57,671 nucleotides of DNA from a virus: IMG/VR virus record IMGVR_UViG_3300025647_000002, positions 1 to 57,671 of that record, one strand, 5' to 3'. Of this stretch, positions 8,285 to 35,553 are shown piece by piece. The translations under genes and the position numbers were made by a program. The notes under the pieces were generated by a model. That model did no database searches. It was not told the origin of the DNA and was given only the letters and a program-made list of their open reading frames with translations. Each line of letters begins with the position of its first letter. The stretch's first letter is position 1.

Positions 8285-8558
8285 TCCGCTCGACTTTGAA
8301 AAGGTAGAGCTGGTCCGTGAACGCATGGCCCTTACAGTCAAGGACATGTGCGCTTTGCTGGGCGTGTCACGGATCAGCTACTACAAGTGGGTCGGAGGCG
8401 GACGCATCCGTGAACACAATGAGAACAAGGTAAAGGCTGTCCTGCGGCAGCTTCTACCCCTTCTGAAAGATGGTTCTTGGCCCCCCGCAGGGGCCAAGAG
8501 TTGGCCAAGTGACCAGCGTATGAACGCGTTACTTGAGATTTTAGGTCCGACCGAGTAG
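8274..8558 (+). CDS. XRE-like helix-turn-helix protein
   Basis: 94 residues, starting at an ATG 11 nt inside the upstream gene. Residues 15-50 contain a helix-turn-helix of the Cro/XRE kind (MALTVKDMCALLGVSRISYYKWVGG), with the SRISYYKW recognition helix. The C-terminal half is short and helical. Unusually, its own coding sequence contains a perfect 10-bp inverted repeat (8475-8499), and another 9-bp one lies just after the gene. It could be an autoregulator of the primase gene downstream; that is inference from position only. Confidence 0.82.
   Translation: MTTNPLDFEKVELVRERMALTVKDMCALLGVSRISYYKWVGGGRIREHNENKVKAVLRQLLPLLKDGSWPPAGAKSWPSDQRMNALLEILGPTE
8475..8499 (+). other. Perfect 10-bp hairpin inside the HTH gene
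   Basis: Bases 8475-8484 (tcttggcccc) pair perfectly with 8490-8499 around a 5-base loop. No T-run follows on the plus strand, so it is not a standard intrinsic terminator. It may slow translation or serve as a protein-binding or RNA-stability element. Confidence 0.6.
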
Positions 8559-8617: not shown

Positions 8618-11485
8618 ATGGATACGTTGGAATTTTTCCAGCGCGTCCTACCAACGGAGGGGATGTACTGCAGGTTCACACTGACCGGTAAGCGTAACCG
8701 GTTCTACGGCAGCATTGCCGAGATGGTGACTGAAGTACAAAACATAGACCAACGTGGGCAGGATGCGTATTTCGCTATCTCCAGTTTCGTGGACGATAGC
8801 AGCCGCAAGAACACAAACGTACAGTTTACCAAGGTCATATCAGTCGATGTAGACTGCGGACCAGACAAGCCATTCCCCACATGGAAGGAAGGGCTCAAGG
8901 CGTTCGGTGGTTTTGTAGCAGAGATGAAGCTACCCAAACCACTCATAATCCGGTCGGGCAATGGCCTGCATATCTACTGGATCATGGAGCGCGATCTTAC
9001 GCGCGAGGAGTGGACACCACTGGCCCGGGCTATGAAGGATGCGGCCGAGGGGCAAGGGTTTGAGATTGACCCTACCAAGACGGCCGAGCCATCGGCGGTC
9101 CTACGACCTGTCGGAACCCACAACTTCAAAGACCCGACCAACCCAAAGCGCGTTCAGCTGTTGCTCGACGGTGGCGATACCACGGTTGAAGTAATGAAGA
9201 AGGCATTGGCCTATTACTATAACGCGGCCAACGCACCTATAAAGCGGAAGAACAATGGGCTGCTGGATAGTCTCGCAGCGCGCACTGAGATGCCTCCTGC
9301 CGTCGGCCACCTCGTGGCTGAGAAGTGCCAGCAGGTAGAGTGGGCGGTCACCAACCAAGACAAAGTGTCGGAGCCGTTCTGGTACGCACTGATAGGACTG
9401 GCTGCCTTCTGCGAGAACCCAGAGGAGACAGCCAAGCGTTGGAGCGAGGACCACCCAAGCTACTCCGAGAGCTCTACACTGAGGAAGATGCAGCAGTGGC
9501 GGGAACAGGCGACTGGACCCTCGACCTGTAGCAAGTTCGAGAACGAGCGTCCTGCGGGGTGTAAGGGCTGCCCGTTTGCAGGTAAGATCGGCAGCCCAGC
9601 ACGACTGGGTGTGCGGTACGCAGAGATCGACACCAGTGATGAGGCACCTGAAGAAGTAATCACAGAGCTTCCGATACCTAAGCCGTTCAAACGGACAGCC
9701 AACGGGATCATGGCTACTATCGACGACACTGATATCGAGGTGGCACCCTTCGACATCTACCCACTCAGCTACGGTTATGACGAGCACCTTGGTTATGAGG
9801 TCGCCCAGTTCATGTGGGACAGGCCTCATGTGGGGTGGAAGGTTCTGACCATGCGGCAAGCCTACCTCGCTGACGGTACCTACCGTGAGTTCGTGGGCTG
9901 CGTGGCAGACCAAGGCATCGTACTACAAACGAAGAGACAGACGGAGTATTTCCAGATCATGCTACGCTCATACATGAATGAGTTGCGTAAGGTGCGGACC
10001 GTCACAAACCTGTACTCCACAATGGGTTGGAAGGAAGACAACAAAGTCTTCGTCCTTGGTGATGATCTGTACCGGCGCGACGGCAGTGGTTCCGTGACAC
10101 ACGAAACGATACGGCTGGCCTCCCACGTCAACCGCGCCGGTAGTGATATGTTCACGACCAAGGGTAACTTCGCCACGTGGAAGGCTGGCAGTGAGATACT
10201 GCGGCGGGGCAAGCTCTACGCCCACCAGTATTCCATCGGGCTGGCATTTGCGTCTATCCTCATGCAGTTCTCCGGCCTCAAGGGTGTGACTGTATCGCTC
10301 TATGGTGAGTCCGGTAGCGGCAAGACGCAGGCACAGTTCATACAGCAGTCTGTCTGGGGCGACCCAGAGAAGATACACTTCCAGTCGCAGTTCACGGCCA
10401 ACTCTTTGTTCGACAAGTTCGGTCTCCATGGCAACATGCCAATCACGATCGACGAAGCGACACAGATGTCAGACAAAGATATGGGCGACTACCTGTACTG
10501 GACCAGCCAAGGACGGGACAAGGCCCGCCTGACACGCAGCGCAGAGGCCCGGGCACCCAGAGAGTGGGCGCTTATCTCCACGCTGTCTACGAACAAACCG
10601 ATTGGCGGTAAGCTGTTGTCGGCGGGGCATGAGAACGAAGCGCAGATGGCGCGTCTGATCGAACTCAAGGTAGCCAAGTCACCAATATACCGTGACGGTA
10701 CGGACGCTGGTCGCCAACTACATAAACTGTTCACAGAGAACTATGGGTGGGCAGGCCGTGCGTTTATAGAACGCCTTATGAAGATGGACGAGCACAGCAT
10801 CCGCGTACTGATGGCCGCCGCTATCGACCAGTTCAACGACAAGTATGGGTACAAGTTCTCCGGCGTCGAGCGTTTCTGGGAGGTGGGCTTTGTGCTGCCA
10901 GAACTGTGCCTCAACCTTGCCCATGGCTGGGATATCACTGCGTTCGACGGGCGCGAAGCAACTGTCTGGGCGACGTCTAACATATCCGAGATGCGGGATG
11001 CAGCTGCGGACAACCAGCGTGATATGTTTGACCTGATCGCAGAGTACATGAACGAGCATCTGTCTGAGACGGTGCAGGTGTTCCACAACGGTGACGCGTC
11101 CCCACTGGTGGATTACTCCCGCCTACCACGGAACAGTGTGCATGTACGCATCGACGCCTACCGCAAGGGCGGCAGCACGGATATCAAGAAAGCAACGATG
11201 TTGCTGGACCGCACACACTTCCGCAAGTGGTACGCATCCAAAGGGCAGAACCCACGGGAAGTATTGGGCGCGCTAGAACTCGAAGGTGCGAACGCTACAC
11301 CGTCGTCGCAGAAGGCATCGCTTGGCAAGAACACCACGCTGTCGATCCCGCAGACCTATGTTATCGGGGTTGACTTAACACACTCACGCATGGCGGGTGT
11401 GTTGGATGATGTGGTGACTGCCAGCATAGAGGCTGAAGCCCGCAGCCAAGACGACACCGTGGTGTCGTTCAAGCCTAAGACCTAG
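8618..11485 (+). CDS. Primase-helicase (AEP primase fused to DUF927-type ATPase)
   Basis: 955 residues. The N-terminal 230 residues look like an archaeo-eukaryotic primase: D77 and D79 in VISVDVDCG provide the metal site, and RSGNGLHIYW carries the SxH-type motif. A cysteine cluster at C304, C315 and C318 is a possible zinc or Fe-S site. The C-terminal half is a DUF927-like helicase with Walker A GESGSGKT at 563-570 and arginine-rich ARLTRSAEARAPREW as a candidate arginine finger. It would unwind DNA and prime both strands. It is the last gene of the plus block and its stop shares CTAG with the stop of the converging virion gene. RBS aagg precedes the ATG. Confidence 0.9.
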   Translation: MDTLEFFQRVLPTEGMYCRFTLTGKRNRFYGSIAEMVTEVQNIDQRGQDAYFAISSFVDDSSRKNTNVQFTKVISVDVDCGPDKPFPTWKEGLKAFGGFVAEMKLPKPLIIRSGNGLHIYWIMERDLTREEWTPLARAMKDAAEGQGFEIDPTKTAEPSAVLRPVGTHNFKDPTNPKRVQLLLDGGDTTVEVMKKALAYYYNAANAPIKRKNNGLLDSLAARTEMPPAVGHLVAEKCQQVEWAVTNQDKVSEPFWYALIGLAAFCENPEETAKRWSEDHPSYSESSTLRKMQQWREQATGPSTCSKFENERPAGCKGCPFAGKIGSPARLGVRYAEIDTSDEAPEEVITELPIPKPFKRTANGIMATIDDTDIEVAPFDIYPLSYGYDEHLGYEVAQFMWDRPHVGWKVLTMRQAYLADGTYREFVGCVADQGIVLQTKRQTEYFQIMLRSYMNELRKVRTVTNLYSTMGWKEDNKVFVLGDDLYRRDGSGSVTHETIRLASHVNRAGSDMFTTKGNFATWKAGSEILRRGKLYAHQYSIGLAFASILMQFSGLKGVTVSLYGESGSGKTQAQFIQQSVWGDPEKIHFQSQFTANSLFDKFGLHGNMPITIDEATQMSDKDMGDYLYWTSQGRDKARLTRSAEARAPREWALISTLSTNKPIGGKLLSAGHENEAQMARLIELKVAKSPIYRDGTDAGRQLHKLFTENYGWAGRAFIERLMKMDEHSIRVLMAAAIDQFNDKYGYKFSGVERFWEVGFVLPELCLNLAHGWDITAFDGREATVWATSNISEMRDAAADNQRDMFDLIAEYMNEHLSETVQVFHNGDASPLVDYSRLPRNSVHVRIDAYRKGGSTDIKKATMLLDRTHFRKWYASKGQNPREVLGALELEGANATPSSQKASLGKNTTLSIPQTYVIGVDLTHSRMAGVLDDVVTASIEAEARSQDDTVVSFKPKT

Positions 11486-14400
11486 TCGTTATACATACCG
11501 GTGTACGCCTCGATGTAGGGGCGTACACTCAGCGAAGTCGAGTTGATAAACCGTTCGCTTGCGAGTTGCTTTTGTGCCTTCAACGCCCGTTTCACCTTAG
11601 CCCGCATGTCGCCCATCTCCAGACCAGTACCGGCAGCATAGCGGTTCCACTCCGCGACACGGTCGTACAGGTACGCCACCTGCTCACGATCACCGCGGGC
11701 TTCGGCCTTCACAATCGCATCACGATACGCCGTGGTGTAGCTGCGCTGGTACTGCTCGCGGCGCATACCGACACGGACGACGTCGTATTCGGATGAAGCA
11801 CCCAGAGGGTACAACCCGAGTGCCCGCATGATGGCGACTCCGCTGTTGTAATCCTCGCTCACTACGTATCCGCGGCGATCCACGATGGCACCACTCCGCT
11901 CGTATGCGTACACGTCACCCAAGGCGCGCAGCATACTGATCGGAGACTCGCGGACTGTCTTTTCAATATCACCGGGCATACCGCCGGGCGCGAAGTCCAG
12001 TAGGTTCCCGATAGTCTTCATGCTGTTCGCAGCGAAGGAAGCCATTGGACCACCGACCTCTGTGATGACACGCGATGTCTCTGCACCCGGGAGGAACATT
12101 TCTGTACCGGGCACGATGTTGCCGAGGCCAGTACGCGAACCGACGTCGCTCCCAAGCATGTTGTTGAACGCACCGCTCATAAGTGCCGAGCCGAAGCCGG
12201 GCATGAACTCGTTGCCCTTGTCCACCATGTACTGCCTGATACTTGGTACTGGGATACCGAACTTGAACGCCAGTGTGTCGACAATATCCTCAATGTCTTC
12301 CGAGAACGGTACACCACGGAGGCCGGACAGCAGCAGGAGGCTGCCGAGCATGATGATCCGCCCGTTGTTATTGAGGTTTGCGATGAGTGTGGCACTGTTG
12401 ACGACGAACTGTTTGAACATGAACGCGAACTGCTGGATACCGCCGCGGAAGAACGCTGGCCGGTTGCCTGTCGTGTAGTCACCCAAGGTACTGTTTACCA
12501 GTGTCTCTGCAAAGGCAGCAGCATCCTTCGCTGCATCCACGTTGTTGGCACCAGCTGCTGTGCGGCGGCGGAACTCAAGGCGGAACGCGGCGAGTGCTGC
12601 TGCACGGCGCGAGTGTTGCTCCGTGGAGTTGAAGGGGGCCATGAAATACTGGACAAACGTCTGCTGCGCACCCGTTGTGACGCGGCCACGGGCTGACCCT
12701 GATAGGGAGTTGAACTGGGCCGCATCCAAGAACCCGCCCTCGATACCTTCGACAAGGAAGTCGGCCTCCGCACGTGTCATACCGCGCTTGGCGAGGTCGG
12801 CATCTGACATTTCCTCTTTGCTCCAGAACGCAGCTGTGTCCGCACCGGAGTTTGGCTTGAGGCTGAACCCAACCGAGAACGCAGCGTTCTTGATCTCGAC
12901 AAAAGCATCCCACCCGAAGCCGCCGCCGAATCCGTTCTTGGCATTGTAGGTAGCCAGTGCTGCAGGCACGTTGGTACCAAGGCCGACAAGGTTCAATGCA
13001 CCCGAGGCTACAGACCCCCCCAAGAACGACATGGCTGTCAACGTGCGTATAGCACCGACGGTTTTGCCGGATGCCATGTCTGTCTCCAGAACCTGCTTCT
13101 GCTGGTCCAAGAATGTCACGAGCTTGCGGAACTCGTTGTAGTGCTGGTTGCCCCGCTTTGGTGCTTCGTTGGTGACGAACCAGCTGTGGTACTGGTCAAA
13201 CTTGCGGCGGGCTTCCACCTTGGCTTCCTCGTTCATCGTCGTGTCAGTCAACGATGCCTCGTACTCAGCCTTCAGCGTGTTGTATTTCTCTTGACTACCC
13301 TTCCACAGCGCATCCGATTCCGGGTTGCTGCGGTCCAGTATGTTCGCCAGCTCCACGCTGGTTTTATTCCGCGCGATGGTAGATGCACGGGACTCGATGT
13401 GCTGCGAGATAGCCTGCGACAGATCGTTCTTCGCACCCGGTGCGAACGAAGCCTTCAGCTGGCGCAGTACGGAGAAGTCGTTCTGCGATGTGAGTGCGAG
13501 GATGATCTGCTCTGCCCGCGTCGGGTCGAGGTTGATACTGAAACGGCGCAGGAACCGCATCGCCTCGTTCATGTTGATCTCTGGGTCTGTCGACGCTGTC
13601 TGGATCACCGCTTCCGACTTGGATATGAGCCGCAGTTTCTTGAGCACGTTACCACCAAGGCCGTTGTTGGCCTTTGGGTCGAACACCTCGACCTCATGCG
13701 TACCCTCACCAAACAGTTCGGTCATGCTCGCCGCTGCCGTATCCGCCTCGCTCTGGGTCTCGAACTGCATGTACACAGTCTGGTCCCGATACCGGTCGGT
13801 CATAGCAAACTCAGTACCGTTCTCATCCACGGCCGCGATGCGTGCGTGCCAGCTACCCTCACGGGTGAACGGGACGTAGTTTGTCTCGATGTCACGGACG
13901 GCCTTGATCTCTGCGTCCCGCGTACTGATGAGTTCGTTGGCGAGGCTGCGCACTTCCTGCTGCACCACGAAACTCTCGGGTCCACGCTTCTCGTTGCCCT
14001 TTGGCTTCAACGGTGTGTACCGCGTACGGAAGTCGGTGATAGCTGCCTCAAGGTCAGCCCGCTCGTTTGTGTCAAAGAACGCTTTACCTCCAGCGCCTTC
14101 AGTCGCCGGGTCAAACAGCGCGTCGATGCGATCCGTACCTGTCCCTAGTAGCGCCTTGTTGACAGCAACCATGAGCGCTTCGGCACGGCGCATGTCGATG
14201 GAGCCACGCAGGCGGATACCATTCTCGTCAAACTCTGCATCACCGGTGGCCACATCCACGAACTTGTTGGTCAGCTTCTGCACCAGCTTGCGGTCACCAT
14301 CAGTCATCGGCGCATTCATCGCCCGCTGGATGCGTTTGTAGGTGGTGTCCTGCTCCTCGTTGTACCGGGTCAGTGTACTCTCCAGCAGGGCCACGGAAGT

Positions 14401-17400
14401 CTCAGCCATCGCATCCAGTTCGCCGTTGAAGCCGGCCCACTCTGCATCTGTGAAGTCGTGGGTGAATGTCTCGGTGTACATCCCGGTGTAGGAGTTGTCT
14501 TTGATCCGCTTGTCGTAAGACTTGGCGATCAGCTTGCCAGCCTCGGGGGTAGGGGCGGCTGCCACGGCAACGTCCCGCTCCGCTACCAGCTGTGCCCGCA
14601 TCTCTACAGTCAACGGCTTGGTCTGCGGCAGTTTGATCTCGATACCATCCCTGAACTGCTGCCGCGTCGGGCGGTTCTGCTTCAGCTTGGCGACGACATC
14701 CTTTTGCAGCTGGAACTCGCCGGAGGCCGCGATGTACTTAAATATCTTTGGCGGGTTTGGCTTCGCCTTGTACCCGACAGAACGCAGGATACGGGCAGCC
14801 TTCAGCGCCTTACCCACATCGCTTTTCTGCGCCTCGGTGAGACCATCCGAGAACTTTATCCCGAAGATTTCCACCGCTGGACGCAGTGTCTTTTTGCGGA
14901 GTACCTGCATCTGGTTGATATGTGTACGCGAGATATTGTACCGCCGGTTGATCGCACCCCAGACAAGACTACCACCCTCACTACGGATTGACCGCCACAG
15001 CGTGGGGGTAAACACCTGAGACTTGAGTGTGTCGTAGGCGTTCCCGAAGTCCACCTTGACCTTACGCTTTGCAAAGTCGTTGAGTATAGCCAGAGCGCCT
15101 TCGAGCTTCTTGGGTGTTGGACCGCCCGCGAGTTCGATCGTACGCCCCAGACCCAGCACGCTACCATCTGCGATGGAGGCGGCCGAGGCGAAACGCCCCG
15201 TACCGGTGGGCTCAATGCCCTGCTCAAGTGCCTGTGTCCTGCGACCCATCAGCTCTGCATCGAAGAACGTGGAGCGCTGACCGGTCACGACGTACCGGCG
15301 CGCTTGGCTGAGAAGGTAACGTGCCTGCTCGTCACCGAACCGTACGCCGATCTTGTTCAGCGCGTTCTTGACCTTGTTCCACCAGAGGGAAAGGATGTTG
15401 TTCTCAATGCGTGCAGCATAGTCAGACAGGTATTCTTCCGTCGCCTCGGCGCGGCTCATACCACGGGCTTCGACTGCCGAGTCGATGAGGGTGCGGGCCT
15501 CTGGTGTGCTGTTCTTGTAGACAGAGTTCATCACGCTGTCGAACTCAGCGTTACCCACGATCGCACGCATACCGAAGTGGCCCATTGTTTCGTGGGCAAG
15601 GACTGCGTTCAGGTGCCCGGTGTTCGCGATCCGGTTGGAGAAGACGATGACGGTGTCGCCGTCGAAGAAGTAGGCAGCTGCGTTGACTGTGTCGAAGTCA
15701 CCTTGCGGCCGCGCCGCGGTAGCGCGTGCGTAGAGCTTTGGGTTCTTGGTCCGCAGGTCCGCTTGGTCCTTGAACACGTGGGACTTTGGCTTAACGGCGA
15801 TGTTACGGAAGAACGACTTCACAGTAAGCTGCAACTTACCAACCGCCATGGGCTTCACGGGGTTCTTGTTCTCATCTGCGAGGCCGTTGAGCGTGTTGTA
15901 ATCTGCCAGCGATGTGCGGCCGGCTTGGACCTTGGTACCAAGGTCACGCCGCTCAATCCTACCTTTGACCACGTTGGGGAAACCTTTGGGTGTGACGTAA
16001 TCAAGGGCATCGCGGGGCTGGCCCTCCTTTGTCCCGTCCTTGATTATTTGCGTCAGCTGGACGAACGTGTCTTGTTCTGTGCGATTTGGCCGTTCGTTTC
16101 TTGTGTTTATCTCGGCTACCATACGCAGCAGTTCTACGGCTGCCACATCGGCCTTTGCTTCGGGGGTATTAGGGGCCCGCTGGCCGGACTGCGCACGCCA
16201 GCGGGCCTGCGCCATATCACTGATCTTAGAGAGTTGTTGGCTGGTCAGGTTTAGCTCTAAGGCGTTCTGAGCTGCCACCTTGGCCTCTGCCTTATCGCTT
16301 GCCTCGGCTATCTCTTCTGTACTGGGCTTCGCCTTGAGTTCTACGTCTGGAGCATTCGCAATGTTGTACAGCTCGATACCAGCGTTGATCTCGTCCGACG
16401 ACAAGGTCTTACGCTTCTTCGCACCGAGGATGTCTTGTTCAAGGTCAGCGACAAGCTCCATTTCGGGTGATAGCTCACCTACGGCGCGCTCTGCCTTCAG
16501 CGCTTCCATACTGACCTTCTTCGGTTTCTTCGGTTTCTCAGGCGCAAGTGTTTCCGGCGTCTGGTCTACTTCGGTTTCCGTTTCGGCTTCACCTTCTCCG
16601 GCAGTTTCTTGCCCTTTGGTGTCTTGGCCTGAAACTCCTTTGCCAGCTTTGGTTCCTTGGCGTAGAGCGCCCGCCTTTGGGCTTGGCTCTTGAACGGCAT
16701 CCTTCTTCCCTCTCTTGAGTTTATCCCCTTTGGGTGCAGTAGGTGGCGTGGGTGGTGTAGTATCCGGGGACAACGCCGCAAGTGCCTGCTCCTTGGTATC
16801 ACCAAGATACGTCGTCAGTTCACCAGCATCCATAACATCAAGGTTATGCCAGCCAGTGATATCCCCGGAACCTACTGTCCGGGCGATGCGTACGATCTCA
16901 CCATCGGGGGTAGCAACCTCATAGACTGTCAGCCCATCGGCGTCCTTCGTACCACGGGCGGATACGGACTGCGCTTTACCGGTCTTCGTGGCCTTTCTTA
17001 TTGCCTCACCGCGAGCCGCCGCTTTAGCTTGCGCAGCGAGGTCCACCTTGGCAGGCGCAGCTTTGGGCGTAGGCTCAGGTGCGCCGCGCCGCGCCGCCAG
17101 ATAGGCTTCGCCCTCCTCAAGTACACGGTCGCGCTGGACGTTAAGGCGTTGTCCGAGGGCCTGCAGATTTGCTGCCTGTCCCTGCAGCTGCTGGCGTTCT
17201 GCCTCAGCTGCGCGTGCGGCTTCGACCTGTTGGCGCATGGTATCTACGTCTGTCTTCGCTGGCGGCTCAGCCCCGCGTGTCGCCGGTGTGTCTACCAGCG
17301 GATCGGCTTTCCCCTTCGCGCTCTTCCTAAGACGCTGGAGCAGCTCGACATCTGCTTTCTCTGCGCGGACAGCGTTTATCCACTCCAGCTGTGACTTCTT

Positions 17401-19446
17401 ACTCAGCTTGGCGAATGTCGGCACGCCCTCTGGGTTTCTAACCAGCGCGCTCTCGTTACCCCATACAGCTAAGGCACCGAGGTAGTCGTTCGGTGTGACG
17501 TCTTCTGCACGCAGCGGTGCCCGCTGTGCTTCGCGCGCTGCCCGTACTTGTGCGGCCTGTTCTTGTTGTGCAGCCTGTCCTTGTTGGGCGGCCTGCTGTG
17601 CGGCCTGCTGTGCGGCCTGTGCCTGCTGCGCTTGGGCACGTGCCTGCTGCTGTTGCTGCAGACGATTCATCTGTTCAGCCATGGCAGTGGGCTGCGCACT
17701 GAGTTCCATCCGCTGCTGACCAGCGGCTTCCAGTTCAGCCTGTGATACAGGAGGTGCTGTGACCTCCGGGCGAGGGGCACCCGCCAGCTGTTGGCCTGTG
17801 AGCCGTGCCTGCGTGGCCACGTCAACACCCATCTCCGCGGGTGTGAACGCCTCGGCCTGTCCGGGCTCTGCGCGTTGCTGAGGCTGAAGTGTAAGCGGAG
17901 GCGGTGCCGGCGACCGAAGGTCCATAGAGAGTTGCGTCTCTGTTGGTGCCACGGGGGCAGGCTGCGGGCCTGCATATTCTCTATTAGGTGCTCGCTGTAC
18001 GGTGGGTATAAACAACCCCGGCTGCTCCTGACCGAAGTCAAAACCCAGCTGTGTGTCGCCGGAAGCCGCGGGTGCCACGGGTGCAGGCTGCTGTCCCATA
18101 TTCGGGTCGGTGCCCAGATCAGCCCCGGGGAACATCTCCGCCTGTGCGTTCGGCTCCAGCGATGCGCCGCTGAGCATGTTAGTCGGGTCACCGGAGTCGA
18201 CGTCACGGTTCGGTGTGGGCGGTTTGGCCTTTCCTTCAAAAGGTATGGAGGCAGCACGGAAGCCACCACCAAGCAAGAAGCCAGCGCCTGCGGCAACAAG
18301 CCCTTCTTCACCATACTTGTCGATGATAAGCGGCGCGAGCGCAGCCCAGTCAGCCTCGTTGAACTCGGCGCGGAGCTCTGGGTCAAACATAACGCGGTCA
18401 GTCAGGGTGGCGGTTGCCTCCGCAGCACCTTCCAAAGCACCAGCGCCTACAACGCGCCCGAGATTACCACGGAATGTGCGGCGAGCAGCGTCATCAACGG
18501 CGGTACCAAATGCGCGGCTGAAACCACCGGCAATGATCGCCTCTGGTACGGTCTGGATAACTGTCTTGAACAGCGCGGACCGCCAAATATCCTGCTGTAC
18601 CTCTGGTGAGCGTACGTCGGGCCCGCCTTGCTCGGCTGCCTGCTCCGCTGCCTGCCACGAGGACTGGAGTTCCATCGGGAAAATAGAAGTGGCGACACCG
18701 CCTAGTTGACCGGCGCGCGCAGCAGCCCCGCCTGCGGCAGCGGCCCGGAGGCCACCGGCCAAAAGAGCACCGCCACCGACGCCACTAGCGACCGACAAGC
18801 CGATCGTTGGGATACTGCGTGTGGCAGCTGTAAGGATTTTGCCGCCGATCCCTTGCTGCTTAGCGATCAATGCGTCACGTGCTTGGTCAGCAGCAGTTGG
18901 GCCGAGGAACTCGCCCGCACTCACAAGTGCCTGTCCCGCGCCTTCGGCCCCAAGCATCTGCAGACCACGGCCTGTACCGCCGACGACACCCTGACCCACA
19001 TCGCGAAAGCCCATTCCGACATTGCCAAAGAAGCCACGCCCTTCACCGATAGAGCTGAGGTACTGCTGGTACTGTGTAGGTGCAATACGCCGCCAGTCAG
19101 CGGCGTTCGCCGGCATGGGGTTAGGTGCTTCGAGGTTACCCGCGCTTTGTAGCGCGACATCATAATCCTCACGGCCAAACTCGACACCACCGACAGAAAA
19201 GCGGTCCATGCCCGGGCTATAGTAGATATCTCCGCCGGGACGCATAGACGATTCTGGTGGAGGTTGGATACGCGGTGCTTCCGGGGCCCCAAGTCCTGTA
19301 ATACGATCCAGCGCCTGTTGGCGCTGGACTTCTACATCCGCAAGGCCGGACCGCACGCCGCCGACGCCCATCTCCGGCAAGTTGCTATATAGATCAGAAC
19401 GTGGCGTTTGTAGTCCAGCGCCGTACCGAAGATTTTGGTCTGCCAT
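11482..19446 (-). CDS. Giant internal virion / DNA-ejection protein (gp16-like) with zincin motif
   Basis: 2,654 residues, the largest gene here, started at an ATG behind gaggtga. By gene order it corresponds to T7 gp16. Residues about 205-250 are Gly/Ala-rich and hydrophobic (membrane-active?), a Gln/Ala-rich coiled region lies near 590-640 and Lys/Glu/Pro linkers near 870-970. HETMGH at 1285-1290 is a zinc metallopeptidase (HExxH-like) motif that could cut envelope or virion proteins during ejection. The C-terminal third has hydrophobic stretches (TLTAMSFLGGSVASG; IIMLGSLLLLSG) that could form a channel through the inner membrane. No lysozyme-like SLT motif was found by eye. A separate small gene is nested at 16566-16700 in another frame. 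Confidence 0.92.
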   Translation of the reverse strand: MADQNLRYGAGLQTPRSDLYSNLPEMGVGGVRSGLADVEVQRQQALDRITGLGAPEAPRIQPPPESSMRPGGDIYYSPGMDRFSVGGVEFGREDYDVALQSAGNLEAPNPMPANAADWRRIAPTQYQQYLSSIGEGRGFFGNVGMGFRDVGQGVVGGTGRGLQMLGAEGAGQALVSAGEFLGPTAADQARDALIAKQQGIGGKILTAATRSIPTIGLSVASGVGGGALLAGGLRAAAAGGAAARAGQLGGVATSIFPMELQSSWQAAEQAAEQGGPDVRSPEVQQDIWRSALFKTVIQTVPEAIIAGGFSRAFGTAVDDAARRTFRGNLGRVVGAGALEGAAEATATLTDRVMFDPELRAEFNEADWAALAPLIIDKYGEEGLVAAGAGFLLGGGFRAASIPFEGKAKPPTPNRDVDSGDPTNMLSGASLEPNAQAEMFPGADLGTDPNMGQQPAPVAPAASGDTQLGFDFGQEQPGLFIPTVQRAPNREYAGPQPAPVAPTETQLSMDLRSPAPPPLTLQPQQRAEPGQAEAFTPAEMGVDVATQARLTGQQLAGAPRPEVTAPPVSQAELEAAGQQRMELSAQPTAMAEQMNRLQQQQQARAQAQQAQAAQQAAQQAAQQGQAAQQEQAAQVRAAREAQRAPLRAEDVTPNDYLGALAVWGNESALVRNPEGVPTFAKLSKKSQLEWINAVRAEKADVELLQRLRKSAKGKADPLVDTPATRGAEPPAKTDVDTMRQQVEAARAAEAERQQLQGQAANLQALGQRLNVQRDRVLEEGEAYLAARRGAPEPTPKAAPAKVDLAAQAKAAARGEAIRKATKTGKAQSVSARGTKDADGLTVYEVATPDGEIVRIARTVGSGDITGWHNLDVMDAGELTTYLGDTKEQALAALSPDTTPPTPPTAPKGDKLKRGKKDAVQEPSPKAGALRQGTKAGKGVSGQDTKGQETAGEGEAETETEVDQTPETLAPEKPKKPKKVSMEALKAERAVGELSPEMELVADLEQDILGAKKRKTLSSDEINAGIELYNIANAPDVELKAKPSTEEIAEASDKAEAKVAAQNALELNLTSQQLSKISDMAQARWRAQSGQRAPNTPEAKADVAAVELLRMVAEINTRNERPNRTEQDTFVQLTQIIKDGTKEGQPRDALDYVTPKGFPNVVKGRIERRDLGTKVQAGRTSLADYNTLNGLADENKNPVKPMAVGKLQLTVKSFFRNIAVKPKSHVFKDQADLRTKNPKLYARATAARPQGDFDTVNAAAYFFDGDTVIVFSNRIANTGHLNAVLAHETMGHFGMRAIVGNAEFDSVMNSVYKNSTPEARTLIDSAVEARGMSRAEATEEYLSDYAARIENNILSLWWNKVKNALNKIGVRFGDEQARYLLSQARRYVVTGQRSTFFDAELMGRRTQALEQGIEPTGTGRFASAASIADGSVLGLGRTIELAGGPTPKKLEGALAILNDFAKRKVKVDFGNAYDTLKSQVFTPTLWRSIRSEGGSLVWGAINRRYNISRTHINQMQVLRKKTLRPAVEIFGIKFSDGLTEAQKSDVGKALKAARILRSVGYKAKPNPPKIFKYIAASGEFQLQKDVVAKLKQNRPTRQQFRDGIEIKLPQTKPLTVEMRAQLVAERDVAVAAAPTPEAGKLIAKSYDKRIKDNSYTGMYTETFTHDFTDAEWAGFNGELDAMAETSVALLESTLTRYNEEQDTTYKRIQRAMNAPMTDGDRKLVQKLTNKFVDVATGDAEFDENGIRLRGSIDMRRAEALMVAVNKALLGTGTDRIDALFDPATEGAGGKAFFDTNERADLEAAITDFRTRYTPLKPKGNEKRGPESFVVQQEVRSLANELISTRDAEIKAVRDIETNYVPFTREGSWHARIAAVDENGTEFAMTDRYRDQTVYMQFETQSEADTAAASMTELFGEGTHEVEVFDPKANNGLGGNVLKKLRLISKSEAVIQTASTDPEINMNEAMRFLRRFSINLDPTRAEQIILALTSQNDFSVLRQLKASFAPGAKNDLSQAISQHIESRASTIARNKTSVELANILDRSNPESDALWKGSQEKYNTLKAEYEASLTDTTMNEEAKVEARRKFDQYHSWFVTNEAPKRGNQHYNEFRKLVTFLDQQKQVLETDMASGKTVGAIRTLTAMSFLGGSVASGALNLVGLGTNVPAALATYNAKNGFGGGFGWDAFVEIKNAAFSVGFSLKPNSGADTAAFWSKEEMSDADLAKRGMTRAEADFLVEGIEGGFLDAAQFNSLSGSARGRVTTGAQQTFVQYFMAPFNSTEQHSRRAAALAAFRLEFRRRTAAGANNVDAAKDAAAFAETLVNSTLGDYTTGNRPAFFRGGIQQFAFMFKQFVVNSATLIANLNNNGRIIMLGSLLLLSGLRGVPFSEDIEDIVDTLAFKFGIPVPSIRQYMVDKGNEFMPGFGSALMSGAFNNMLGSDVGSRTGLGNIVPGTEMFLPGAETSRVITEVGGPMASFAANSMKTIGNLLDFAPGGMPGDIEKTVRESPISMLRALGDVYAYERSGAIVDRRGYVVSEDYNSGVAIMRALGLYPLGASSEYDVVRVGMRREQYQRSYTTAYRDAIVKAEARGDREQVAYLYDRVAEWNRYAAGTGLEMGDMRAKVKRALKAQKQLASERFINSTSLSVRPYIEAYTGMYND
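16566..16700 (-). CDS. Small basic protein nested in the giant virion gene (alternative frame)
   Basis: 44 residues: ATG at 16700, TAG at 16566-16568, preceded by gagggaagaagg. It begins MPFKSQAQRRALYAKE and continues with AKTPKGKKLPEKVKPK. I recognise this pattern (MPFKS-AQRR at the start, TPK-KLPE-VK at the end) from a widespread family of tiny, very basic phage proteins of unknown function. It is read in a different frame on the same strand as the 2,654-residue gene. There the host frame (about residues 916-961) is only a low-complexity Gly/Glu/Thr/Lys linker, as expected if the linker is the secondary reading. Length and basic charge suggest nucleic-acid binding; that is inference. Confidence 0.75.
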   Translation of the reverse strand: MPFKSQAQRRALYAKEPKLAKEFQAKTPKGKKLPEKVKPKRKPK

Positions 19447-24094: not shown

Positions 24095-26487
24095 CAGACG
24101 TCCCTCAAACCAGTGGGTGTCTCAGCTATACGTATAGCCCTAAGCCGTACAGAACCTTCGACGCCCACCTCGAATGTATCGGAACGGTAGCCGTGTGGCA
24201 AACGAAACACTTTGCGACTGTCAAGAAGTTGTGTCGCGACAAGCTCGCCGTCCACCCAAAACTTAAATACGATACCCCCGTCGGCATCCCACTTCAGGTC
24301 CGCAAGGTCCCAGCTCTCGGTTACATCATTCCATGCCGGTGAAACCGGCGCATAGTCTGCATCCACTTGTCCGGCCCCGATGTTGATCGGGTTCGGTGTC
24401 ATGATAACTTTGGACTTCCACTCGAAAGGCTGCGCTGGTTGGTCCAGATCGTCCCATAGGTACACATCACCGGTGGTTCCTGTTGCGTAGTACAGGTTGT
24501 TCGTAAGCGAATCGTACCAAGTGGCTTCAGGTTGCAGCGCCGTTGATAGATCGACGAAGAACCCGCCAACTTTATCATCCCGCTCGAAACTGATCCCGCC
24601 ACTAGAGTGCCATGCGAGGTACGTGTCTTTGTAGGCTGTACCTATGAGCGTGGATGGGTCGAGGTCTGCGTTCCATGTGTCACTGTTGTACAGCAAGCGT
24701 GTGGCCAGCTGGGGTCCAGTCGTGGTGGAGTACATAGCGAGCCCATCATGAGTTGTGTACATGACACCGAACCCCATGTTGGCGATGCTGCGTTTGTTTA
24801 GGCAGGGGTACTGGGCATCCACCCGCGTCAGCGCAAGTACAGCAGGGTCATTACCCTGTGCGAGATACGGATAGCTGTCGGTGGCGATAAGCAGGTACCC
24901 CGAGAACACTGTTAGCCCTACAATGTTGTAGGGGATTTCTTTCTTATATGTCCTTGGCCACGCGTGGTATTGGCCCGGCTCCGAGAAGTATATCTCGTTG
25001 CCCACGAAACCGACGAGGATATTGTTGTTGTACAGTGTGAGCCCCTTCAACCCAACGGGCGGGGGGACGTAGTCGTCTGTGACCAACGCGTTGAGGAGGC
25101 TTGCGACATTGAAGTCGTCGATAAAATCATAGGAGCCGTCACCCCAATACCGTGGTGTGCTCGTGCCGGGGTTCTCAGATATGTCGTGGTAGAGTGTGCC
25201 GCCAGTACCGCCGGAGCCAGTACCACCGGTGTATGTGAAGGTGAAATCATCCGTCACATCCGTGACCTCGCCGCCGGTCACGCCGGTGCTGATCTTGAAG
25301 TAGTTGCCGACTGACAGGTTATGAGGCTCCGCAGTCGTTACGGTGGTGCCAACCACGCTTACGACATCCACAGGGAACCACAACGTGGCGAGCCGCAGGT
25401 ATTCTGTGTCGGCCACAGTGGAGAGCGTACGGTACAGCCGGATACCACGGATAAAGTTATTGCCTGCAGGCCGCTCAATCGGCAGGTTCCCTACGGTGAC
25501 GACCTGCCCCTCTTTGATGTACAGTTCATCCGACGGCAGTGACCCGATGGATTCTTCTTCCCATGGTGTGAACCACGTGTAGAGATAGGTCCGCGCCTGC
25601 GTACTACCCGAAAGGTCTACACGACCCACGTCGCTTGTCGATGTACCGACCTGAAAACCCGGGCTGTTGTATGTGAACGTGTTGCTGCCAGTGACTGTCA
25701 CCTCGACCGATAACGCATTTAAGCTCGTGAGGTCCAGACGGACATTACCCGTAGTATCACCGGACTCCGGTGTCGTGATAGTAAACGTGTTGGTGGTAAT
25801 GGCCGTTATCGTGTAGATGTTGTCTTGATCGTCCGCCTCGCCAGATGTGAAGCGGAGCAGGACCCGCGCACCGACCGCGATGTTGTGGTCAGCGATCGTG
25901 ACTGTAACGGTCGTGTTTGTACGGGAGTATGTACCCGCAATATCGACGAATCCGCTGATCGAGACGAACGCTCCGCTCTTGAGTGTATGAGGCTCACTCG
26001 TCGTCATTGTGACGAGACCGCCGACATCACGCGCGTATGAGGCTGTCGTCTTGGTGGTGAACGTATCTGCCACAGCAGTCGGTGTCAGGTCTGGCAGTGG
26101 TAGCCCTAAGTCATACGACGTGCTTGGGTACGGTGGTACCCCCTTTATAGCCATAGCGTAGGTAGAGACCTTCGGTGCGCCGTCACCGGTGTAATAGAAC
26201 CGTTGCTCGTCGGCGTTGTCTGATCCGGCAGGCGTGGCGATATCCACATCCGTGTCCCAGACCATCCACTCAGGATCGCCGGTCGCAGGGTTGCGCAGAG
26301 CATACAGCGTCTGCGGCGCTACGCCGGTCAATCCATGGTTACCCACGACGGTAGGCCGGGGGTAAGGAATCAAGTCACCGGAATACAGTTTCACATTCGT
26401 CGCAACCTGCGCCGCTGTATCGGGTAGGAGCTCCGGCGCAATGCGTGGAGCCTTCCCTAGAAACTTCTGGAACTTGATCGCTGGCAT
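24094..26487 (-). CDS. Tail tubular protein B / nozzle (T7 gp12-like)
   Basis: 797 residues. The N-terminus (KFLGKAPRIAPELLPDTAAQ, then YSGDLIPYPRP) is the conserved start of gp12-like nozzle proteins, which begin with a strand listing surfaces of the tail hexamer. The rest is beta-rich, with inserted Ig-like segments (residues about 150-330) rich in Thr/Val. T7 gp12 is 794 residues, so size agrees. It forms the distal tube of the short tail and gates DNA release. It overlaps the following gene by one base. Synteny with gp13-16-like genes downstream strengthens the call. Confidence 0.88.
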   Translation of the reverse strand: MPAIKFQKFLGKAPRIAPELLPDTAAQVATNVKLYSGDLIPYPRPTVVGNHGLTGVAPQTLYALRNPATGDPEWMVWDTDVDIATPAGSDNADEQRFYYTGDGAPKVSTYAMAIKGVPPYPSTSYDLGLPLPDLTPTAVADTFTTKTTASYARDVGGLVTMTTSEPHTLKSGAFVSISGFVDIAGTYSRTNTTVTVTIADHNIAVGARVLLRFTSGEADDQDNIYTITAITTNTFTITTPESGDTTGNVRLDLTSLNALSVEVTVTGSNTFTYNSPGFQVGTSTSDVGRVDLSGSTQARTYLYTWFTPWEEESIGSLPSDELYIKEGQVVTVGNLPIERPAGNNFIRGIRLYRTLSTVADTEYLRLATLWFPVDVVSVVGTTVTTAEPHNLSVGNYFKISTGVTGGEVTDVTDDFTFTYTGGTGSGGTGGTLYHDISENPGTSTPRYWGDGSYDFIDDFNVASLLNALVTDDYVPPPVGLKGLTLYNNNILVGFVGNEIYFSEPGQYHAWPRTYKKEIPYNIVGLTVFSGYLLIATDSYPYLAQGNDPAVLALTRVDAQYPCLNKRSIANMGFGVMYTTHDGLAMYSTTTGPQLATRLLYNSDTWNADLDPSTLIGTAYKDTYLAWHSSGGISFERDDKVGGFFVDLSTALQPEATWYDSLTNNLYYATGTTGDVYLWDDLDQPAQPFEWKSKVIMTPNPINIGAGQVDADYAPVSPAWNDVTESWDLADLKWDADGGIVFKFWVDGELVATQLLDSRKVFRLPHGYRSDTFEVGVEGSVRLRAIRIAETPTGLRDV

Positions 26488-28372: not shown

Positions 28373-29668
28373 TTAAACACGAGCTTTTACCCGAAAGCTC
28401 CACTGCGAATAGTTAACAGGGAATATCTCAGCAGAGTTGTCTTTTCTCAGAAGTATAAGAGCATCCCCAACAATAAGCTTTACGGTGTTTGCGTTTACGA
28501 TATTAAAAATAAGACCTCTCTGAGAGTCATTAGGGGTGGCAGGAAGTTGCAACACATCCCCTACAGAGTAACTATTATTATCCACTATACACTGAACTTC
28601 TAAAAGAAGTAGGGGGGACGTTGTGTTTAACGAGTGGGTAAAGTCTGTCTGGCTATCTGTCGACAAAGAAACTAAAGAACTACTATAAGTCCATCCTTGA
28701 GCGAAGTTAACAGCAGCCTTAACCTTAGCAGGAGATACAAGGCTTTCTGTAGTAGAAGTCCCCGCCTGCCAGACCGCAGTGTCCAACGTGGTGTTGCTGC
28801 CCTGCGGGCCGGTCGGCCCTGTAGGACCAGCTTCATCGCCAGCTGGGCCGATGGCCCCCGTGGGTCCCGTAGCACCTAAGCCGTCAACACCAGCGGGGCC
28901 GGTCGGGCCTGTCGGGCCGGTCGGGCCGAGTGTTCCAGCTGGGCCGGTAGGTCCACTCGCGGGGCCAGTCGGGCCCGCTGCACCCGTGGGTCCTACGACG
29001 GAGTTGCCTTGCGGGCCAGTCGGGCCTGTACTGCCATCGGTGCCGGAAGGCCCCGTCGGACCTGTAGGTCCGCTGGCAGGGCCAGTAGGACCTGTGATCG
29101 AGGGACCCTGCGGGCCGGTCGGCCCTGTAGGACCAGCTTCATCGCCAGCTGGGCCGATGGCCCCAGTCGGACCTGTGGGTCCTACAGCGGTGCTATCCGC
29201 ACCCTGCGGGCCGGTCGGCCCCTGCGGGCCTACAATCTGCCCGACGTTGTCCCACAGCGCTCCGTCCCATACGTACAGATCACCGTCGGCGGTCACGATG
29301 TAGGCATCGTTGATCGTATTGCCTAATGCAGGGAGGTCGCCGACCGTAGCAACCGTGCCTATGAAGTTGATGGACACACCCTGCGGGCCAGTCGGGCCTG
29401 TCGGGCCAACGACTGTAGAGTCCGCACCTGCGGCCCCAGTCGGGCCGGTGGGACCAAACACACCGGACGGACCTGTCGGGCCTGTCGGGCCGCTACTATA
29501 GGGCAGGTCTAGGTACGCATCTGCACCGTTACCGATCTTGTATTTGCCGGTGTCTGTTTCCAGCACGAGTTCCCGGTCCGCGAGGATCGGGTTGAACTCG
29601 GTCCAGCGGGCCAAGGTGTCGCCACGTAATGCAAAGCCGATTGTCGAGGATGGTGTGGGTCCGGGCAT
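28373..29668 (-). CDS. Collagen-like tail fibre with Mtd_N-type head (fibre 1)
   Basis: 431 residues. The N-terminal 60 residues ([36 protein letters not shown]) match the Mtd_N-type virion attachment domain. Gly-Pro-Thr triplets form a collagen-like shaft around a small globular insert (residues about 95-150: [18 protein letters not shown]). The last 100 residues are a different domain ([20 protein letters not shown] to the end) with strongly AT-rich codons, presumably the receptor-binding tip. A paralogous fibre (34078-35553) shares the head, insert and shaft but not the tip. Its ATG overlaps the end of the glycosyltransferase gene region (TGATATG). Confidence 0.88.
28800..28858. repeat. 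59-bp direct repeat in the fibre 1 shaft (copy 1)
   Basis: Bases 28800-28858 recur exactly at 29106-29164. The offset of 306 bp is 102 codons, so recombination between the copies would shorten or lengthen the collagen-like shaft in frame. Confidence 0.85.
29106..29164. repeat. 59-bp direct repeat in the fibre 1 shaft (copy 2)
   Basis: Exact second copy of 28800-28858; identity breaks at the base after each end. Both lie in Gly-X-Y coding sequence. Confidence 0.85.
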
Positions 29669-29669
29669 A

Positions 29670-30734
29670 TCAGGCCGCCTTGTCTGCGGAGTAGAACTCC
29701 AAGTTACGTTTCAACCGCTCATCACCGGGCTCGAGCCCTACTGCGAGCTTACCGTGTTCTACGGCTTCCCCTGACTTACCGAGGTGGTGGGCCGCCAGCG
29801 CAAGAAGATCATGCGGCTTTGCCCCCCAGACACTCGGGTCCATCGTGTAGACCAAGGCTTTGTCCTTAATCGTCAAAGCCTGTTTAGCACAGTCGTAGCT
29901 TAATTGCCACTGGTCTGTCTTACGCGCGAGGTCAGCCAGCTCTACCCAAGGCTCACGGGTGTTCGGGGCTTCCTCGGTGGCTTTCTGGAGCCAGACCTGT
30001 GCCTGCTCACGGTCGCCCAGCGCCTCGTAGGACTGCGCCATCACGCGCATCGCGTAGCACCGCTCGTTCGCCCAGTCGGCGTTCGGGTTGTCCAGATATT
30101 TATTCAGCGCCACGATGGCGTCGATCCAGCGGCGGCTGAACGTCAGCTCGCGGGCGTAATAGAACGCATTGCGCGGGCAGTGTGGGTCTTCCTTGACTGA
30201 CAGCTCCAGCAGGTCGAGGTATTGCCCCCGGCTCTTGGTAGGATCAGGGTGGTGCGTCACCAAGAGCATGTCCGTCTGGGCATAGAACTCATTGGTCCGC
30301 GCATCCGGGCGCGGGTACTCGTGGCACGGGTGGTGCCAGTGATAGCCGTGGCGCGCGTGGATTTTCTCGTAGTAGAACAGGATGCCTGCGCCCCAGTCGA
30401 ACTTGTAGCGCAGCCGGGTCGTCTTGCCCAGTTCCCAAACACGCTCGATCTCCTCGCGCCAGCCGGGTTCCAGCCGTTCGTCGAGGTCGAGGCTGATACA
30501 CACGTCGATGTCGCGGGGGATGAGGGCAAGCGCCGCGTCCCGGGCCTTATCGAACCGCCAAGGGGTGATGCAGATTTCCGGTACAGTCGCACCGCAAGCA
30601 CGGGCCAACTCGACTGTCTCATCGGTGCTGCCTGTATCCGCGATGAGGATCAGGTCCGCATCCTCGGCAGACTCACAGAACTGCTCGACAAACGAAGCCT
30701 CGTTCTTACTGATGGCGTATACGCAAATCTTCAT
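29670..30734 (-). CDS. GT2-family glycosyltransferase with TPR repeats
   Basis: 354 residues, ATG behind gggag. The N-terminal GT-A domain (1-170) starts with [16 protein letters not shown], has ADTGSTDET (32-40) for nucleotide-sugar binding and the metal-binding DLD at 83-85 ([12 protein letters not shown]). The C-terminal half carries tetratricopeptide-like helix pairs (residues about 180-330; [18 protein letters not shown]). This GT2-TPR layout is frequent in phages near tail fibre genes. Possible substrates are host surface glycans (blocking superinfection) or the phage's own fibres. It sits between the fibre 1 gene and the tail assembly chaperone. Confidence 0.88.
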
Positions 30735-34078: not shown

Positions 34079-35553
34079 TACGAACCATCCCCGACGAGTG
34101 CGCCGTAGAGTGTCGTGCTTACCTTCCACAACTGGACAGTCGTGTATCCAGTGGTCGCCAAGTCGGGCGCGGCACCTGCGTTGTTGATCCACGTCATCGT
34201 CGGCCACGTGATCGCCTGCCCTGCTCCGTCGTCGACCATCAGCGTGATGGCCTCGCCGCCCGAGAGGGCGTCGGTGTATGTGGTGGCTCCAGACAGCGTG
34301 TGGGTCTGCACTGTTCCGTTGGATGGATCAAGCGAGGGGGTTGTGCCAGTAAGTGCGAACACCTGCTCGACGATAGCGGCCCCGAAGGTGGCGTCTCCCG
34401 ACATGGTGGTAGTCGACGAGAACGTCACTCCACCACTGAACGTGCCGCCGGACGCGGGGACAACATCTGCGAGCTCCGCTGTCGTCCACGCAAGGACTTC
34501 CACGAGGTCGCCCAACGTAGCGCCCGTTGCCAAAACAATAGATGTCCCGTTGGTGGCCGTGTAATCTGCGGTCCCGAGCTTAGCCCCGTTTAGGAACACA
34601 TCGGCGTAACCTACGGTATAGGCCACAGTAAACGTGGTTTGCGCAGCAGTCGCGGTGAATGTTGCTTTGTTGTAGGCGATGCTTTCACCAATGGGGCCTG
34701 TCGCTCCGGTCGGGCCAGTCGGACCTACTACGGTGGAATCCGCGCCTGTAGGGCCAGTGGGACCAATAGCACCCAGCGTACCATCTGCGCCGGTCGGGCC
34801 CGTTGGGCCGACAACTGTAGAATCCGCGCCTGCCGGACCGGTAGGGCCAGTGGGGCCAGCGACGGTAGAGTCCGCGCCTGTAGGGCCAGTAGGGCCAGCG
34901 ACTGTGGAGGCGTCACCCGGAGCACCTGTAGGGCCAGTGGGGCCAGCGACTGTAGAGTCAGCACCTGTAGGGCCAGTAGGGCCAGCGACTGTGGAGGCGT
35001 CACCCGGAGCACCTGTAGGGCCTGTAGGGCCAGCGACTGTAGAGGCATCGCCTTGTGGTCCTGTAGGGCCAGTGGGGCCAGCGACTGTAGAGGCATCGCC
35101 TTGTGGTCCTGTAGGGCCCGCGACTGTAGAGGCGTCACCCGGAGCACCTGTAGGGCCAGTAGGGCCTGTGAGACCGACCGGACCAGTGGGGCCCGTAGGA
35201 CCAGTGGGGCCGACGATCTCACCGACGCTAGACCAAGACTCATTCCAGACATAGAGCTCGCCATCGGCCTGTACGATGTAGGCATCGTTTGCTGTGTTAC
35301 CCGTTGCAGGGAGGTCGCCAACCGTAGGGACCGACCCGAGCACATTAAGCGACACGCCCTGTGAGCCCGTAGGACCAACGATGCCCCCATAAGCGAGGTC
35401 GAGGTAGTTGGATACCCCGTCACCAACTTTGAACTGGTTTGTGTCCGTCTCAAGGACAAACTCCCGGTCCGCAAGGACTGGGTTGAAAGCTGTCCAGCGC
35501 GCCAAGGTATCGCCGCGAAATGCCAGCTGGAATACGGATGCGCTAATGGTCAT
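34078..35553 (-). CDS. Collagen-like tail fibre with Mtd_N-type head (fibre 2)
   Basis: 491 residues. The Mtd_N-like head (1-60: [28 protein letters not shown]) is followed by a globular insert ([18 protein letters not shown]) and then a long Gly-Pro-Thr collagen-like shaft (about 115-285). Next comes a strand-rich domain ([18 protein letters not shown]-like, as in many phage fibres), and last the module that ends [10 protein letters not shown]. The module recurs as a separate gene at 32017-32376. ATGA overlap with the upstream gene. Shaft DNA is made of near-identical repeats. The head probably docks to the virion and the C-terminal modules contact the host. Confidence 0.88.
34860..35170. 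repeat. Tandem-like repeats in the fibre 2 shaft
   Basis: Units such as cctgtagggccagt and gggccagcgactgt alternate through this stretch. A block of nearly 60 bp (with ctgtggaggcgtcacc) appears at about 34880 and again about 85-90 bp later, and a block with gaggcatcgccttgtggt appears twice near 35040-35105. All encode Gly-X-Y plus AGDASTV-like spacers. Slippage would change shaft length in frame. Confidence 0.75.

Follow-up and report, generated by a model that had tools for sequence, protein, structure and literature searches.

Embedded out-of-frame genes of phages are known from a few well-studied cases, such as lambda Rz1 within Rz and phiX174 E within D. The locus described here lies in the window, i.e., the whole 57,671-nucleotide stretch of viral DNA that was analyzed (IMG/VR virus record IMGVR_UViG_3300025647_000002), and it resembles these cases in that a complete small gene is contained in a larger one on the same strand and in another frame. 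Unlike them, the small family at this locus has members within two or more unrelated virion genes as well as stand-alone and adjacent ones, and the host exceeds the small gene in size by far. The small gene is a conserved embedded dual-coding gene that has so far gone unannotated, and none of the phage records checked has its nested copies annotated. Regarding the host gene, phage polyvalent proteins (Iyer 2017, PMC5512222) are of very large size, consist of multiple regions and have their genes among the late virion genes, all of which holds for the giant host protein as well; no Pfam domain was matched by the full window protein at E values up to 10. A term search of the main text of PMC5512222 found no overlapping or alternative-frame gene, and the literature searched on PHROG 1375, its peptide motifs and embedded or overlapping phage genes gave no mention of the small gene.

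The embedded gene and its host in the window

The window has the make-up of a podovirus-like genome and encodes a terminase, a portal or head-tail adaptor, a major head protein, tail fibres and an internal virion protein; the features at the locus are compiled in Table 1. Minus-strand translation from 16700 to 16566 gives MPFKSQAQRRALYAKEPKLAKEFQAKTPKGKKLPEKVKPKRKPK followed by a stop. This ORF is present as a single copy in the window record; its stop codon occupies 16566-16568 and its coding part 16569-16700, which is a small correction to an earlier sequence-only reading of this DNA. That reading had described a complete 44-residue basic ORF in a second frame of the 2,654-residue gene, preceded by a purine-rich site, and both descriptions hold: the ORF is wholly contained in the larger one on the same strand, as confirmed by translation, nesting and the +1 offset, and the purine-rich stretch is in place. 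Within this stretch, GAGG at -12 to -9 of the embedded ATG is, by its sequence, a plausible Shine-Dalgarno site. The main frame, which reads KDAVQEPSPKAGALRQGTKAGKGVSGQDTKGQETAGEGEAETETEV at the small-ORF site, had been called just a linker. It is indeed a low-complexity linker, hydrophilic and, as an average over the nested set, net acidic; the word “just” is too weak, because the host frame is itself constrained.

Table 1. Positions of the embedded gene, its host gene and associated features in the window
Feature	Position	Strand	Remarks
Embedded small gene, 44 aa + stop	16566..16700	(-)	+1 frame relative to host gene; PHROG 1375; AlphaFold2 two helices + basic tail
Host gene, 2,654-aa giant virion-type protein	11482..19446	(-)	Last gene of late minus-strand block, downstream of internal virion protein gene
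Purine-rich AGAGGGAAGAAGG	16701..16713	(-)	Immediately 5′ of embedded ATG
Host-frame reading of overlap, DAVQEPSPKAGALRQGTKAGKGVSGQDTKGQETAGEGEAETETEV linker	16569..16701	(-)	Hydrophilic
Internal virion protein gene (phrog_511)	24097..26487	(-)	Upstream of giant gene, same late block

The C-terminal part of the window giant protein matches phrog_11358, and the relative L037 (loci are designated by L and a number) matches the DarB-like phrog_10089. Residues 1284-1293 of the window giant, AHETMGHFGM, form an HExxxH-like motif that is conserved in L004 and perhaps indicates a metalloprotease. Elsewhere in the window, two separate tail-fibre-like genes with overlapping PHROG matches (28376-29668 and 34081-35553) may perhaps encode alternative receptor-binding proteins, and a gene located between tail-fibre-like genes (29673-30734) strongly matches the phage beta-1,4-glycosyltransferase family phrog_13126, possibly with a link to host surface or fibre modification.

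Distribution and contexts of the small gene family

A main-frame search recovered L004. Overall, its giant protein shares 41% identity with that of the window; its embedded protein is 86% identical, lies at the same place and in the same frame, and is preceded by a matching purine-rich site, GACGGAGGAAGAAGG. A search with the small-protein alignment gave at least 368 confirmed relatives in IMG/VR, and further searches led to a set of about 345 loci, which represented 264 distinct contexts after removal of duplicates. These contexts, the proportions of which reflect the queries used and are not natural frequencies, comprise small genes nested in giant ORFs (88 of 264), nested in unrelated ORFs of about 390 aa (65 of 264; 379-429 aa), placed directly 3′ of a giant ORF whose stop abuts or overlaps the start of the small gene (13 contexts, i.e., 12 and L148) and standing alone (about 88 of 264). 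All 153 nested copies, 88 in giants and 65 in scaffold-type hosts, use one phase; the phase-1 candidates L108 and L112 and the “other” nested ORFs L015, L119, L294 and L318 were left out as evidence, since their ORFs have fewer than about 700 codons and may be spurious.

The family is held together by a start-anchored MPFKSxAQ motif and an LP motif, which are common to the window protein and other members; M1, S5 and Q8 are invariant in the family alignments, and P2, F3, K4, A7, L33 and P34 nearly so. The phrog_1375 profile is matched by 70 of 108 sampled members (best E 2.3e-7), and the window protein itself matches over residues 3-42 with an E of 0.0079, which is weak alone. PHROG 1375 is listed as a phage protein family of unknown function, and its listing is silent on a nested, dual-coding location. 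The sequence-only reading had expected that stand-alone homologues occur in many phages, that a homologue search would find them and that related phages keep the small frame open; the census bears out all three, with one nonsense exception (L090). As 270 of 4,927 control ATG ORFs in giants are +1 ORFs of at least 40 codons, such a length is not rare, and the evidence for the gene is therefore homology and selection instead of length. A soil subfamily on Acidobacteria and Chloroflexi MAG contigs (L108, L112, L114, L115, L119, L122, L123, L125, L127 and L130) has an additional segment of the ELLVEGKIS type midway along the small protein.

Nearly all giants with nested copies fall in one BLAST cluster, the exceptions being L100 and L323. 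Searches led by the giant main frame, with the small gene not serving as the query, found the nested gene in all giants covering the site, and a further giant main-frame-led search found it in 10 of 12 loci; divergent versions in L350 and L353/L354, which were recovered in the same way, keep the phase. The hosts of about 390 aa are homologous to gp27 of Flavobacterium phage elemo and sit between the portal and a virion structural gene, i.e., at the usual scaffold position; their putative scaffold identity is positional, and elemo gp27 gave no match to a scaffold profile. The elemo phages, which are cultured isolates, also carry the small gene in a giant: gp18 of NC_055853 (3,694 aa) contains an unannotated nested small ORF in the same +1 frame, whose protein includes MPFKSKAQMKACYSQDNPKWDCKKW. 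The unannotated ORF recurs in the giant structural gene of the elemo records (68; e.g., NC_055853 52379-52495), and it is identical across the four elemo types compared while the flanking sequence differs. The giant gene of Podoviridae ctfjg026 (MW202828) likewise has an unannotated nested small ORF in this frame. The nested members of the elemo and ctfjg026 giants thus share the +1 frame with that of the window and differ from it in having the core NPKWDCKKW. The ctfjg026 giant gene (MW202828.1, L359 from 32233) is labelled “reticulocyte binding/rhoptry protein” and is evidently a giant virion gene. A term search of the elemo paper for proteomics found no mass spectrometry, and Maribacter phage Panino showed no copy of the small gene in the stretch examined.

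An AlphaFold2 model of the small protein, computed from an alignment from which two database-record-derived rows were left out, has helices at residues 6-15 and 17-26 and a basic tail (pLDDT 87.5), and the net charge is about +7 to +9 over the first 40 residues. No significant match was found in Pfam or NCBIfam or, for the model, in a fold search against the PDB, and the BFVD matches are uncharacterised relatives. A PDB sequence search returned repeat-protein false positives only (“Cake” designs with domain E-values above 1,000), which were rejected. Around stand-alone copies, in a sample picked by neighbor length and not at random, the ten upstream neighbors are four portal genes, one terminase gene, one tail-fibre-like gene and four genes without a match; the downstream neighbors include a head assembly/scaffold protein, a head maturation protease, a head-tail adaptor and a virion structural protein.

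Codon-position constraint in the overlap

At the embedded ATG, DNA identity rises sharply in both host families, from 0.58 to 0.96 for the giants and from 0.66 to 0.98 for the scaffold-type genes. Codon positions were compared in 71 disjoint pairs from the two host families, the pairs being chosen by overlap identity. In the 40 giant pairs, the differences per codon at small-frame positions 1/2/3 amount to 0.114/0.076/0.197 within the overlap, and those at host positions 1/2/3 outside it to 0.396/0.317/0.540; the corresponding values for the 31 scaffold-type pairs are 0.055/0.043/0.118 and 0.233/0.147/0.436. Host position 3, which equals small position 2 and is normally the most variable, becomes the least variable in the overlap, where it takes 20% of the differences as against 43% and 53% in control regions. 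The binomial p values of this shift in the two families, 4e-24 and 2e-20, are nominal since the sequences are related. At equal amino acid identity, small-frame third-position divergence is lower in nested than in stand-alone copies (0.27 versus 0.47 and 0.33 versus 0.55), and this holds in every identity bin, as dual constraint predicts; both frames are accordingly constrained. Host-frame amino acid identity averages 73% within the overlap versus 49% elsewhere. Taken together, the embedded ORF is almost certainly under purifying selection as a gene.

The raised host-frame identity might instead mean that the conserved element acts solely through a linker motif read in the host frame, or through RNA, leaving the +1 ORF as an untranslated by-product. 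However, the differences fall mainly at position 3 of the small frame and spare positions 1 and 2, conservation sets in at the ATG, and stand-alone homologues exist in which stops usually close the other frames, so that such a reading is extremely improbable. Recent horizontal exchange of a dual-coding cassette, instead of long-term dual constraint, is another way in which the overlap could have been kept similar, and it would be compatible with the explanation preferred here. Overlap DNA is up to 96% identical in giants that are otherwise about 30% identical in protein (e.g., L165/L176), and choosing pairs on overlap identity favors the exchange reading; against it, identity drops to background right at the ATG, and the lower small-frame third-position divergence recurs in the all-pairs comparisons. 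Exchange is accordingly rated an unlikely cause of the conservation.

Regarding the origin of the nesting, the sequence-only reading had offered capture of a stand-alone gene or overprinting. Of these, capture is the probable one, because the same protein occurs stand-alone, directly 3′ of giants and nested in an unrelated scaffold-position gene; the small-protein tree, with 49 columns only, does not resolve the direction. Overprinting would mean that the small protein arose de novo in the giant virion gene and later escaped as stand-alone genes. It agrees with the widespread and deep nesting in the giant family, where one ancestral nesting would explain the single phase, and the tree is compatible with it. 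However, stand-alone copies diverge more widely than nested ones and span more divergent phages as well as MAG contigs, and de novo origin in the giants fits poorly with a small gene that is also nested in the scaffold-position gene and placed 3′ of giants; overprinting is therefore held to be improbable. As for function, a regulator or DNA-binding protein tied to a late message had been suggested, in keeping with a product that is basic, small and helical. This suggestion is not upheld by the searches, in which neither a DNA-binding family nor a solved fold was matched, or by the named neighbors, which are mostly head-assembly genes and not regulatory or replication genes, and such a role is considered doubtful. 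Judged solely from these neighbors, the small protein may act in head morphogenesis, a tentative assignment with somewhat less than an even chance. It could then be an assembly factor that associates with capsid, portal or scaffold, or else a minor internal head protein, with a part in assembly or packaging.

Proposed explanation, phase and translation start

The overall explanation, i.e., an embedded late gene of PHROG 1375 with a role in the head and an origin by capture, is regarded as having a good likelihood. The embedded ATG and its purine-rich site would most likely permit independent internal initiation on the late mRNA of the giant gene, and the predicted product would be a small, basic, two-helix PHROG 1375 protein. 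A pre-existing small late gene would probably have been captured into a tolerant linker of the host gene, and the phase retained would be the one in which the Lys/Arg codons of the small gene read as an acidic, disordered host linker. The used phase gives the host frame a net charge per 40 residues of -6 in giants and -10 in scaffold-type hosts, whereas the unused phase would give +12 to +17, and the tolerability of an acidic as opposed to a strongly basic linker is sufficient to explain the phase. The single phase within giants can be explained by common descent; counted over two to four independent host families, the phase bias has a p of about 0.02 to 0.06, which is weak evidence alone. Chance frame openness was rejected as the determinant of phase, since fewer stand-alone copies lack stops in the used phase than in the other (24% versus 38%), yet every nested copy is in the used phase.

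Regarding the start context, a Shine-Dalgarno match precedes 20 of the 88 giant-nested starts and none of the 65 scaffold-type starts; the window and L004 have an SD-like sequence, which most AT-rich nested copies lack. Among AT-rich starts, those nested in giants are rich in A at -13 to -11 (0.78-0.88 versus 0.35-0.38 in control ATGs), and scaffold-type nested starts are so at -14 and -12, the controls being other ATGs of the same genes. At -3, A is enriched in the scaffold set only, not in giants. Initiation regions of Bacteroidetes also have such an A-rich upstream stretch (PMC6847099).

One family is thus nested, in constant phase, in two unrelated virion gene families of cultured and uncultured phages, suggesting that a conserved late protein escapes standard gene calling. 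The nested, adjacent and stand-alone forms provide a natural series for how genes become nested, and Flavobacterium phage elemo is a cultured system suited to the study of dual coding. A portable dual-coding cassette, in which a basic two-helix protein and an acidic disordered segment are made from the same bases and both are used, is a long shot. If it were true, the amount and the synthesis site of a head-assembly factor would be coupled to those of a virion protein, in giant ejection-type as well as scaffold-position hosts, and the acidic segment might even serve as a docking site for the basic protein with which it shares its DNA.

A few loci depart from the general pattern. The giants L355 and L356 are without the small gene, and the N-terminal half of the L355 protein gave no convincing alignment to that of L348. 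In L090, a TGA stands at codon 21 of the small frame and the frame beyond it is intact. In L086, L087, L088 and L091, which are identical at the site, ACG replaces the ATG and the frame is kept; translation might begin at a GTG that lies in frame nine codons upstream. From the TGA and the ACG starts, the small gene can apparently be lost or re-started. L025 has a second nested copy in the same phase, with copies at 8479 and 9001, the upstream one having a degenerate start.
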